Assembly (NCBI RefSeq): GCF_007904105.1
Contig: NZ_CP042325.1
Coordinates: 1,612,001-1,676,000, forward strand
From: Corynebacterium sp. sy039
GTDB lineage: Bacteria; Actinomycetota; Actinomycetes; Mycobacteriales; Mycobacteriaceae
Reading direction: 5' to 3'
Length of the DNA: 64,000 bases
This document shows, one piece after another, positions 25,804 through 30,706 of the stretch. The number at the start of each line of letters is the position of its first letter. Positions within the stretch are counted from its first letter, which is position 1. Under the pieces are notes generated by a model, which had not been told where the DNA came from, searched no databases, and saw only the letters and a list, made by a program, of their open reading frames with translations. The position numbers were made by a program, and so were the translations under genes.

Positions 25804-27416
25804 TTACGCTGCGCGCAGATGTCCGCCAGTAGTAACTTTAGGACGGTCTTTCTTCGCCACAGTCTTAGCCTGCTTAGCGACGTTATCCTTCACGCTTTCA
25901 GAAATAACGGTCTTAGGTGCAGGCTTAGATTCTGGTTTAGAATCGGCAGGTTCGTCCTGCTCAGGCTCTACAACGGTGGTAACAACCTCACCCTGCTCAA
26001 CCTCTGTGTCTGTGTCAGGCACAGTTGGTGGAACAACAGGCTTAACCGGTTCCTCACGTTCTTCAGGACACTCAGCTGGCTTCACAGGTTTCTCCTGCTC
26101 AGGTTCCTGTGGTTCTTCAGAAGGAGTAGGTTCCTGAGTTTCCTCACTTGGAGTTGGTTCCTCAGACTCCCGTGGTTCCTCAGTTTCCTTGGAAGGCTTA
26201 GCAGGTTCAACCTCCTCTTCGTCAGAAGGCGTAGGTTCTTCAGATTCCTGTGGCTCGTCAGAAGGAGTTGGTTCCTCAGACTCTACAGGCTCCTCACTAG
26301 GTGGCACCTCAGTCTCTTCATCAGGACAAAGAGTAATATGCTGGAAACCCTGATCACAATTATCCTCAGCACCATATAGTGCGCCATAATAATTCACCGC
26401 AGGATTCAAGTGAAGATTAAACGTATTTACATACTTCTCATATCTATCACCACCAGCCTCGATATCGTTACCAATCATGTCAAAACGATTCGTATTACGA
26501 GTAACTGCACAGGTTCCCACACTTGTTAAACCATGGCGAGTACCCTGATCAGCATACAAAGCAGCAATCTTCTCATTCTCTAGGGCGATTTCTTTATTAC
26601 GCTGAACAATCTCTGCTTTACGAGCTGAAGACGCAGACTCATCCTCATGAATCATCGGAATAGACGCAGGAGGCAACTCATTAGTAAGCCCCCAGTGATA
26701 ACTTTTCAGACTCTGACACCCCTCCTCAGCGCTACCAAACACATCTTGGCTAGAGCATTTCCACATCACATTATCAACGCGAATCGGAATATAGGTATCT
26801 TCACCAACAGCCTCCACAGTACCGGTGACCTCAAAAGTATAGACACCACCCACACTGCCCAAACTAATCTGGTAGAAATTCCACTCAGGCTGATACGAAA
26901 AAGACGAAGGATTCACACCACGAGGCTGCCCTAACTTCTCTGATTCCTCGGCAGTAAACTTATAAAACGGAGTAATACCATACGTAGCATCACGCTCAAC
27001 ATTAGATAAATCTAATTCAGAACTATCCTTGATAGGAACCTGATAATCAACCATACGCACAGGCATAAAACTCGTATAAAGATCTATATCTTCGTTAGGC
27101 TTAACAGGCATATGCGTCAATTTGATAGACACGTCTTTGACCGTAGATGGGATCATGATCTGTGCATTCTTCGAGGTTTGGATTTGATCCTCACCCATCG
27201 CCAATGGCGCTACCTGCACTTGCCAGGTAACCTGTGTTTCATCCCCCACTTGCTTCACACAGGTAGAACCCGTATCACAGTTCACACCACCCCAAAAACC
27301 ATGAACATTATCAGCACCACCGGCTAATACCGAGGGGGGGGGGATAGAAAACCCGCACCAAGCACACCAACGGCAACCACAGCCGCAGCACGCTTAGCAA
27401 AACGATTCAACAACAT
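25804..27416 (-). CDS. Secreted Pro/Glu/Ser-rich protein A, phase-variable, read as OFF
   Basis: Translation from the ATG at 27416 (AGAGG upstream) gives a clear signal peptide, MLLNRFAKRAAAVVAVGVLG, then meets a run of ten C. With ten C the frame closes at TAG after 30 codons. With eleven or eight C it joins the 494-codon frame that ends at 25804, giving about 537 residues and a cleavage-like VLA-GG site. The mature part has an N-terminal domain with paired cysteines, a conserved middle (residues about 120-240), a Pro/Glu/Ser-rich stalk of EEPTPSEE-like repeats and a basic C-terminus ending HLRAA. There is no LPxTG motif or C-terminal membrane segment. Function unknown; an envelope or secreted antigen is likely. 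Confidence 0.8.
27334..27343 (-). repeat. C10 homopolymer in signal peptide A
   Basis: Ten C (ten G on the plus strand) in codons 25-28 of protein A. Slippage to eleven or eight restores the frame; other lengths close it. Confidence 0.9.
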
Positions 27417-27530
27417 TATTTCCTCTATTCTCCTAGGAAAAAGAACAAAAAAAGCACTTTCCAAGCCATCCCAGCCATAACATACAAAGCTGAGAAAAAC
27501 CTAAAAGCATTTCTCATCATAACCCAAGAC
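27414..27530 (-). promoter_or_regulatory. Conserved upstream block of protein A
   Basis: The region before the start is shared with the second paralogue (30704-30830): the leader with TCCTAGGA and AGAGG, and the TGCTTTTAGGTTTTTCTCAG stretch about 75 bases upstream. This probably holds the duplicated promoter. Confidence 0.55.
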
Positions 27531-27538
27531 ATGAAGAA

Positions 27539-27566
27539 AGTCCTAGCACCAACTGGCACTAGGACT
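27539..27566 (-). terminator. Hairpin after MFS gene
   Basis: AGTCCTAG and CTAGGACT pair over a 12-base loop, with TTTC following on the minus strand. It resembles the hairpin at 29038-29071. Confidence 0.7.
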
Positions 27567-27624
27567 CCACAGAAGAACAGGCGGTGACAGGCAAGCAAAC
27601 AGACAAACAGGGCAAGGAAGTTAC

Positions 27625-28893
27625 TTAAGCGATTTCTGTATCTACATCGTGCTCAATAGATGGAGCAGATTTTCGTCCTAAAAACTGACTCAGCCCAATG
27701 AGAAACGTCGCAATAGCTATTGCAGTCCAAACGATGACAGAGAACGCGTATCCCACACGATCTGCACTATATCCACCCAAGATTGCTCCTAGTGGAACCA
27801 CCGCCATAACAAACGTTCGCATTGAAGAAAGTCCCACGCCGATTTTCCCTTGAGGCAGCTGGCTAACAAAGTAGTTCATTGCGGAGACGTTGATGAACGT
27901 GGCTGCTATCGACCACAGTGCGCCCGAAATTGCCGTGAAAATGAATGCTGGCGCGTCACAAATAACCACGAACAGAAAAAACAGTGCTGAGAGCACCTGA
28001 CCAAAAGTTGCTAGCGTAATCATTTTTGCGAAATCGAAACGGTCAATGAGTCGTACTACCAACACTGATGCAAAAAGAGCTGCAAGGGCGTCGATTATGT
28101 TCAGGGTTGAAAAGCCCGACGGATTCATTCCTACTTCCCGCAGCAAGAACAGCGATTGTGGAGAGTCGATAAAGGCCAATCCAAGGTTTCCTGCGGCAAT
28201 GAGTAGTACCGGTATCAGACGTTCCTTACTCTGTGCAATGAATAAGAAGCCGCTAAGAAGCGTTCCTTTACCGTCAGTGTCCTCTAGCTGGCTAGAGCTT
28301 TCGTCAATGTTGGTATCGCTAACATTCTGAACCATTCTTCTTACCGGGAATGCAATCATTGCTAGGGCACACATCGCGAGTGCTGCTGCCCCAATATATC
28401 CTTCCCTATAGAATTCCCCTGCTGCAATCAGTGCTACCACACCAGGGGCAGCAATACCGATCATCTTGTCTGCAGATTCAAGCTGGGCAACCAGCTTGGA
28501 ATTTCCCACAATTTTTTGGATTGATACCGCTGTAATTATTTGAGAGTTGTCGATGAAAATACCGACAAACGATTGAAGAACCTGAAGAACCAGAATGGTC
28601 CAAAATGACAATCCTCCAGACAAATAAAGAAAAGCAAATGCCGTGAGGAGAGCAGCCTTAACCGTCAAGGCGTAAATCAATACCTTAATCGGGTCTAAAG
28701 AGTCGACCAACTTCCCAATGGGTACAGCGGAAACTAAGTACAAGACAATCGAGAGAGAACTCAGAAATCCCAGCTCCGTACCCGTGAATCCAAGCTGATT
28801 TACTACGACAAGTTGCGTTATTAGATCTACAGTGCGTCCGGCGAAAGCGTCGAACATATTGGAACTGGCATAGTATCGTTCAATACGTCTCAT
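27625..28893 (-). CDS. MFS transporter
   Basis: A 422-residue major-facilitator protein with about twelve membrane segments; the loop after segment 2 reads GKLVDSLDPIKVL, a weak form of the family A motif. It resembles drug or peptide exporters of the MFS_1/MFS_3 type, but the substrate is unknown. GAGG precedes the ATG. It stands between the two phase-variable genes, on the same strand, with similar hairpins on either side, so it could be cargo of the same accessory cassette. Confidence 0.88.
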   Translation of the reverse strand: MRRIERYYASSNMFDAFAGRTVDLITQLVVVNQLGFTGTELGFLSSLSIVLYLVSAVPIGKLVDSLDPIKVLIYALTVKAALLTAFAFLYLSGGLSFWTILVLQVLQSFVGIFIDNSQIITAVSIQKIVGNSKLVAQLESADKMIGIAAPGVVALIAAGEFYREGYIGAAALAMCALAMIAFPVRRMVQNVSDTNIDESSSQLEDTDGKGTLLSGFLFIAQSKERLIPVLLIAAGNLGLAFIDSPQSLFLLREVGMNPSGFSTLNIIDALAALFASVLVVRLIDRFDFAKMITLATFGQVLSALFFLFVVICDAPAFIFTAISGALWSIAATFINVSAMNYFVSQLPQGKIGVGLSSMRTFVMAVVPLGAILGGYSADRVGYAFSVIVWTAIAIATFLIGLSQFLGRKSAPSIEHDVDTEIA

Positions 28894-29037
28894 ACTTTTC
28901 CTCGCTGATCAATCGTGACTGTAACTCAAAACGCCCGTTAGGGCATGCAATAAACGTAGCAAAGCGCGGTTGGCTAAAGACTTTTCTCTTGAATCTAACC
29001 TAGTTGGAAAGCTCCCATCAGAACCTAAGAAACACAG

Positions 29038-29071
29038 AAAAGTCCTAGCACTGGTTAGTGCCAGGACTTTT
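29038..29071 (-). terminator. Terminator of protein B gene
   Basis: AAAAGTCCT-A-GCAC and GTGC-C-AGGACTTTT form a long stem with a 6-base loop, followed by T-rich sequence on both sides. Confidence 0.88.
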
Positions 29072-29090
29072 AGTTTTCTAAGGAACAGGA

Positions 29091-30706
29091 TTACGCTGCG
29101 CGCAAGTGACCACCAGTAGTAACTTTAGGACGGTCTTTCTTCGCAACAGTCTTAGCCTGCTTAGCGACGTTATCCTTCACACTTTCAGAAATAACGGTCT
29201 TAGACTCAGGGTTAGATTCTGGCTTAGAATCGGCAGGTTTATCCTGCTCAGGTTGAGCAGGTTTGCCTTCAGGTTCAACAATGGTAGTGACAACCTCAGA
29301 ATCAGTGTCCGCGTCAGGAGGTGTCGACGAAACAACAGAAACCTTAGGCTCCTCACGCTCCTCAGGACGCTCACCAGGCTTCACAGGCTTATTTTCCTCA
29401 GATTCCTGTGGCTCCTCGCTAGAAGTTGGTTCTTCAGTTTCCTTAGAAGGCTTAGCAGGCTCAACCTCCTCCTCAGAAGGCGTAGACTCTTCAGATTCCT
29501 GTGGCTCGTCAGAAGGCGTTGGTTCCTCAGACTCTACAGGCTCCTCACTAGGTGGAACCTCAGTCTCCTCATCAGGACAAAGAGTAATATGCTGGAAACC
29601 CTGATCACAGTTATCCTCACGACCAAGCAGTGAACCATAATAATCCAGCCCAGGATTCAAGCGAAGATTAAACGTATTCACATATTTCTGATAGCGAGCA
29701 CTACGATCAGGATAAAGATCAACACTAATCGTATCAAAGCGATCCGTATTCAGCGTTGGCACACATGTATCGGCATAATACAGACCATGTTCAGTCCCTC
29801 TATTCTTATACACATTAACAATCTCTTCATGGGTATATTCAGACTGCTCTTTCGTCATCACAGGAGGTAATTCACCGCTTTGAGCCCAATCATAATTACT
29901 CTTCAGCGGTGCACACCCTTCCTCAGCACTACCAAATTGATCTTCGGAAGAACATTTCCATATCAGATTGTCAACACGAATTGGCACATACGTATCCTCA
30001 CCAACAGCCTCTACAGTACCGGTGACCTCAAAAGTATAAACACCAGCATCATTCCCCAAATTAATCTGGTAAAAATTCCACTCAGGCTGATCAGCAAAAG
30101 ACGAAAGCTCAACACCCCAAGGCTGCCCTAACTTCTCTGATTCCTCAGCAGTAAACTTATAAAACGGAGTAATACCATACGTAGCATCACGCTCAACATT
30201 AGATAAATCTAATTCAGAACTATCCTTAATGGGAACCTCATAATCCACTTCCTGTGCAGGAGCAGACTTTAACTCAGCAATAACTTCCCCATCATCTTCA
30301 AGAGCCCCTCCTACAGTATTGCCCTGAATATCTTTCCCATAGGTCTTATTAGGATCCTCCCCCTTGGACTCATCACCATACTCAGGACGCGTAGGCATAT
30401 GAGTTAAACGAATAGAATTCACATCAACCGTTGCAGGCACCATAATCTGCGCGCTCTTCGAGGTCTGTATATGCTCCTCAGATTGTACTAATGGTGCTAC
30501 CTGTACTTGCCAGGTAACTTCTGCTTTATCACCAATTTTTTTCACACAGGTAGTACCGGTATCGCAGTTCGCACCACCCCAATAACCATGAACATTATCA
30601 CCGCCGCCACCGGCTAATACCGAGGGGGGGGGGCTAGAAAACCCGCACCAAGCACACCAACGGCAACCACAGCCGCAGCACGCTTAGCAAAACGATTCAA
30701 CAACAT
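29091..30706 (-). CDS. Secreted Pro/Glu/Ser-rich protein B, phase-variable, read as OFF
   Basis: This is a close paralogue of protein A: same signal peptide, same middle domain (DLSNVERDATYGITPFYKF is identical), same C-terminus ending VTTGGHLRAA. It differs in an insert near residues 100-130 and in stalk length. From the ATG at 30706 the frame meets ten C at 30624-30633 and stops after 30 codons; eleven or eight C would give a protein of about 538 residues. No sortase motif is visible. The pair is separated by the MFS gene, and the spacing of the two starts is 3290 bp. Function unknown; antigenic or adhesive roles are inference. Confidence 0.8.
30624..30633 (-). repeat. C10 homopolymer in signal peptide B
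   Basis: Ten C at the same codon positions as in protein A, with the same effect on the frame. Confidence 0.9.

Follow-up and report, generated by a model that had tools for sequence, protein, structure and literature searches.

The 64,000 nt window analysed here, from Corynebacterium sp. sy039 (contig NZ_CP042325.1, positions 1,612,001–1,676,000), contains two paralogous genes for putative secreted proteins, designated family 1, each with a run of cytosines within the signal peptide codons. On the plus strand these appear as runs of exactly ten G at 27334–27343 and 30624–30633, corresponding to C10 on the coding minus strand, and they begin 73 nt downstream of the respective ATG codons (27416 and 30706). 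The leaders of both genes, MLLNRFAKRAAAVVAVGVLGAGFL, lead straight into the C10 tract. The initial annotation of this DNA had placed C10 at codons 25–28 of two paralogues, with both ATG frames ending after 30 codons and a frame of about 500 codons lying beyond the tract; all of this was confirmed at both loci, where the frames past the tract are open for 509 (copy 1) and 510 codons (copy 2) and both begin with SVLAGG. The features of the pair are as follows:

25804..27416, minus strand: family-1 gene, copy 1, closed as assembled (ATG at 27416, leader, tract and long frame)
27334..27343, minus strand: C10 tract in the signal peptide, codons 25–28, copy 1
27324..27416, minus strand: 30-codon closed frame from the ATG, including the stop, copy 1
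25804..27333, minus strand: 509-codon frame past the tract, copy 1, with a beta-rich part followed by an acidic, proline-rich tail predicted to be disordered
25817..25836, minus strand: codons of the C-terminal VTTGGHL, copy 1, an end also found in a second secreted family
29091..30706, minus strand: family-1 gene, copy 2, closed as assembled
30624..30633, minus strand: C10 tract in the signal peptide, codons 25–28, copy 2
30614..30706, minus strand: 30-codon closed frame from the ATG, including the stop, copy 2
29091..30623, minus strand: 510-codon frame past the tract, copy 2
29104..29123, minus strand: codons of the C-terminal VTTGGHL, copy 2

The window holds six overlapping C8 matches, against a mean of 0.78 and a maximum of 4 in 100 dinucleotide shuffles. 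As in contingency loci, these are unusually long homopolymers sited where a change in length shifts the reading frame.

The Leader Tract Is Shared by 20 Paralogues

A protein search of the sy039 genome (2.24 Mb) returned 38 matches, which were grouped as 21 copies of the family and a marginal match at 984414. The leader tract is present, always at the same position, in 20 of these paralogues (C9 in two, C10 in 14 and C11 in four); the tract-bearing pair first noticed is thus real, although its scale had been set too small. As assembled, and read mechanically from the ATG, five of the 20 copies are open (481–576 aa) and 15 are closed (30–39 aa). Among the 19 copies with a standard leader, four of them open, the state follows the length class of the tract without exception, and the remaining copy (1918200) has a divergent leader in another phase and is open. 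The 19 standard leaders differ little from one another, with a mean identity of 0.90 over 73 nt. Past the tract all 20 frames are open over 453–550 codons, in one register. In the tractless paralogue the C run is interrupted, the frame is open from the ATG for 354 codons and the C-terminal end is lost to a frame break.

The protein past the tract is predicted by a structure model to consist of a beta-rich domain and a disordered tail. Neither window protein matched any Pfam family at E values up to 1, no NCBIfam family was found for the mature part and a sequence search of PDB gave no match. The C-termini do not show the arrangement of LPXTG-anchored proteins, in which the LPXTG motif is followed by a membrane helix and a basic tail; all 20 frames end with VTTGGHL, which reads VTTGGHLRAA in the window copies.

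Closed Copies Look Selected

Pairs of closed copies (105 of 105 usable) showed a median ratio of nonsynonymous to synonymous substitution rates (dN/dS) of 0.31 (range 0.18–0.48), and pairs including an open copy a median of 0.28 (79 of 85 usable, six dropped). Changes that would create a stop make up 4.3% of all single-base changes in the post-tract frames and none is present in the 15 closed copies, an absence that we infer to be far below the neutral expectation. The closed copies, with their post-tract frames intact, look selected, and the original argument that conserved protein sequence past the break speaks for selection holds over the 20 copies. It is scarcely credible, then, that the closed genes are pseudogenes decaying after an expansion of the family: the 15 closed frames and the truncated tractless copy would fit such decay, but no tract-bearing copy has a second break, in spite of that supply of potential stops, and closed pairs retain the low dN/dS given above.

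Variation along the protein is uneven, with a ratio of the proportions of nonsynonymous and synonymous differences (pN/pS) of 0.69 in the central part (alignment columns 101–260), where there are also many gaps, versus 0.31–0.38 elsewhere.

Copies From Related Strains Probably Differ in State

Database representatives of the family include records from Corynebacterium sp. sy017 and SY003. For the four open copies with a standard leader, the best matches were P0022 (sy017; 98.5%, next paralogue 59.8%), P0028 (sy017; 93.0%, next 66.7%), P0008 (96.5%, next 77.7%) and P0023 (SY003; 89.9%, next 79.6%). P0023 starts with MRVFYPPPSVLAGN, a register also seen in P0004, which is a closed copy of the sy039 genome itself; this off-register start firmly indicates that its tract belongs to a different length class from that of its open match in sy039. 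In P0022, P0028 and P0008 the annotated start lies past the tract, and the state of these genes likely differs between sy039 and the genomes behind the records. For the fifth open copy the match is P0026 (97.2%), a representative with a full leader. A scan of named genomes, which may leave out near genomes, found no sy017 or SY003 DNA. Counted by eye, 23 of the 27 representatives of the lineage family (P0003–P0029) start past the tract and two in another register, so that signal peptides are lost from the annotation; a protein search with the leader alone retrieved three representatives, all already among the known ones.

These records bear on three further explanations. Homopolymers are generally error-prone, and a single closed length recurs in 13 of the 19 copies with the standard leader; base-calling or assembly miscounts could therefore conceal tracts that are all in frame and genes that are always on. 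We consider this unlikely, because three tract lengths occur in one assembly, in which runs of 11–13 C/G are called elsewhere, and because the SY003 protein P0023 reads off-register just as the closed copy P0004 does. It is quite unlikely as well that the closed copies form a silent store of cassettes by which the few open ones are altered through recombination, the tract serving as a lock; this process could also act alongside phase variation. Such a role would suit the 15 closed copies of 20, the near identity of the leaders and a variable centre flanked by conserved ends; every copy, however, keeps its own leader and start, and the likely change of state at four loci sits at the tract. Finally, C runs are in principle prone to slippage, and transcriptional slippage or ribosomal frameshifting on the run might yield a fixed low full-length output from every copy. 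Recoding of this kind is very unlikely, since it leaves unexplained both the three tract lengths and the differences in state between strains.

Relatives Outside the Lineage Lack the Leader Tract

When six candidates were scored per genome, nine of 242 genus genomes, counting sy039, gave matches at E values up to 0.001. Apart from sy039 itself only G241 is close (48%), with two copies that lack a leader tract and are both open. In named genomes, no relative was confirmed by a first scan; a second one, with alignment, identified nine distant loci in Actinotignum and Arcanobacterium, at about 30%. An open matching frame is seen in all nine, some being partial and the annotated starts provisional; none has a C/G run of at least 8 at the start of the match, and one has such runs farther downstream. 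The Actinotignum loci have hydrophobic ends, and the distant relative P0033 bears LPLTG. Given that the G241 copies and the nine distant loci have no leader tract, this feature is, as far as seen, particular to the sy039 lineage. Homologues in other genomes that lack the tract yet are just as open or closed had been named at the outset as a finding that would tell against switching; in fact both G241 copies, the nine distant loci and the tractless paralogue of sy039 are open, and a closed leader was found only in tract-bearing copies.

One of the two G241 genes has a C10 run about 190 nt upstream.

Long C/G Runs and Mismatch Repair

The sy039 genome has 42 C/G runs of at least 8 nt against 20.9 expected, and 37 of at least 9 nt against 4.65 expected, under a first-order model derived from the window (GC 48.7%); 20 of these 37 belong to the leader-tract family and 17 lie elsewhere. 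The pure C runs do not reflect a codon habit, because past the tracts only 15 of 881 proline codons (1.7%) are CCC. Inspection by eye of the 242 genus genomes revealed more runs of at least 9 nt only in G020 (60) and G008 (53), in which, among the places listed, they are clustered and many are near contig ends; G021 (35) and G120 (33) come close to sy039.

We considered whether poly-C could be a mere habit of the genus and rejected it: in G021 (72% GC, 35 runs) we inspected by eye 16 of the runs among the matches listed, and in G014 (64% GC, 20 runs) 17, and their surroundings were mostly GC-rich or intergenic, with no leader-placed family. Two observations by eye tell against a clean contrast with the genus, namely two G021 runs within the first 20 codons of one open reading frame (ORF) and a G10 of G014 located 282 nt upstream of a secreted-looking ORF.

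Gene nucS is present at 841397, with a weak second match at 1410822. No MutS domain was found in this genome, whereas the control search recovered MutS from 11 of the 14 genomes used as controls. NucS from Mycobacterium smegmatis is described as not repairing indels of 1–2 bases (PMC11551767), and by analogy NucS of Corynebacterium would be equally blind to them.

Phase Variation as the Best Reading

Taken together, the sequences are best read as those of a family of secreted or surface proteins under Opa-like translational phase variation, a reading that we hold with considerable confidence. The slipped-strand switching originally proposed for the pair finds support as this reading in the 20 tracts of three lengths, the intact and apparently selected frames and the sorting of state by length class, and also in the excess of long C/G runs, the rarity of CCC past the tracts, the firm (P0023) and three likely differences in state from related strains, and the presence of nucS with no match to MutS. 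The 20 paralogues would be switched one by one through changes in the length of the poly-C in their signal peptide codons. In one length class the leader would be in frame with the mature part, and the protein made and exported; in the others translation would end within about 40 codons. Slipped-strand mispairing in growing cells would change the length of the tracts, and the copies would presumably switch randomly and independently of each other. The products may be exported to the surface, where a beta-rich fold with a hypervariable part would suit a role in attachment or antigenic variety.

Several points weigh against phase variation. All tract lengths come from a single assembly, and the single length shared by most standard-leader copies might point to limited variation or to biased base calling. 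Because the paralogues have a common origin and possibly trade sequence, the 20 copies do not count as so many independent events, and the selection seen on closed copies may be older than their closure. As for the strains, the comparison uses cluster representatives, the P0008 record carries no strain name, and three of the four differences (P0008, P0022 and P0028) depend on annotated start codons, that is, on the gene caller.

Comparison With Known Switches

The opa genes of Neisseria are multi-copy within one genome. They encode variable surface proteins that are switched by repeats in the codons of the leader peptide (PMC3960869), and family 1 likewise combines many copies of a partly variable, putatively secreted protein with a repeat within leader codons. 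In contrast to the CTCTT repeat of opa, the repeat is here a C homopolymer and the host an actinobacterium; moreover, homology to Opa outer membrane proteins was not found, there being no Pfam family, and the likeness is in mode of working only. Closer in phylogeny, two secreted putative adhesins of Propionibacterium (Cutibacterium) acnes are strain-variable, namely PPA2127, whose gene has a C tract at its 5′ end, and PPA1880, where a G tract occupies the spacer of the putative promoter (PMC3224659), and the homopolymers of this species have been surveyed (PMC4746626). PPA2127 resembles the leader family and PPA1880 the promoter-type loci described below; however, they are described as individual genes, as opposed to 20 paralogues plus seven promoter-type loci of a second family. 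Mycobacteria, which are also actinobacteria with NucS-type repair, show homopolymer indels (PMC11551767) and phase variation at homopolymeric tracts (PMC11898584), but the accessible portions of these sources describe no large family of leader-switched secreted paralogues. Searches of the literature on Corynebacterium, these strains or leader poly-C, mostly outside subscription journals, brought up no account of such a switch in this genus among the papers listed (20 of 47 and 25 of 145 in two of the searches). This type of switch is already known, while its bearer, scale and genus appear to be new.

A Second Secreted Family and Other Tracts

Outside family 1, tracts were found upstream of a second family (family 2):

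L071 (56863, 63032, 65143), L072, L073, L075 and L089: family-2 loci, where G11–G13 occupies a promoter-like spacer upstream of genes for large repeat proteins of secreted appearance

At these seven loci the G11–G13 run lies between TGGACA-like and TA[CT]TCT elements, some 50 nt upstream of the start of a long frame (ATG at five loci, GTG at two) with a leader-like N-terminus. Three of the frames end within the stretch examined (1971, 633 and 1034 codons) and four extend beyond it; the one family-2 protein tested matched DUF7507. A promoter homopolymer of variable length is also reported for the opc-type promoter of Neisseria (PMC3960869), although the proteins differ.

Promoter-spacer scores were calculated for both strands of the 17 tracts outside family 1 (34 rows) and compared with 4,000 random sites, of which 3.3% reach 8.5 and 0.05% reach 10. 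Six of the seven family-2 loci score 8.5–9.5 and 65143 scores 7.5. Tracts 445845 and 2149687 also reach 8.5, which makes this score weak by itself, and the case for family-2 promoters would rest more on position and conservation. The highest scores were those of 944294 (10.0; L079) and 2040129 (10.5; L087), where G10, preceded by a −35-like box and 9 bases and followed by a −10-like box, lies upstream of genes for ABC-transporter ATPases; the remaining tracts score at most 8.

The codons for VTTGGHL occur at 28 places in the genome: 21 in family 1, including the tractless copy, two at the end of family-2 frames (56863 and 309938), four that are ascribed to family 2 solely from their position, 4–6 kb downstream of its tracts, and one at 169366 that has no assignment. 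By position, the 633-codon family-2 frame has none. Being common to two unrelated secreted families without LPXTG, this end could possibly be a signal for attachment or sorting.

Other tracts lie near or within genes of different kinds. A C9 at 959545 (L080) falls within an hsdM-like gene of type I that has an hsdS-like neighbour, and the frame ends just past the tract; the hsdM-like gene is a candidate phase-variable methylase (phasevarion). G10 runs are found near the start of a gene for a major facilitator superfamily (MFS) transporter at 918305 (L078) and, at 445845 (L074), near that of a gene situated just behind an ORF that we take to resemble a sigma factor; in both cases the start is uncertain.

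We advance tentatively, with rather less confidence than for the switching of family 1, that 20 leader-switched and seven promoter-switched secreted proteins, together with a switchable type I methylase and the lack of MutS, may constitute a genome-wide stochastic surface programme with millions of states per clone, in which the shared C-terminal end would perhaps be an undescribed attachment signal. If phase variation of family 1 is true, random surface variation of the Opa kind and on a large scale would extend to Corynebacterium, and the family would offer 20 natural loci for studying the behaviour of tracts in cells reliant on NucS.
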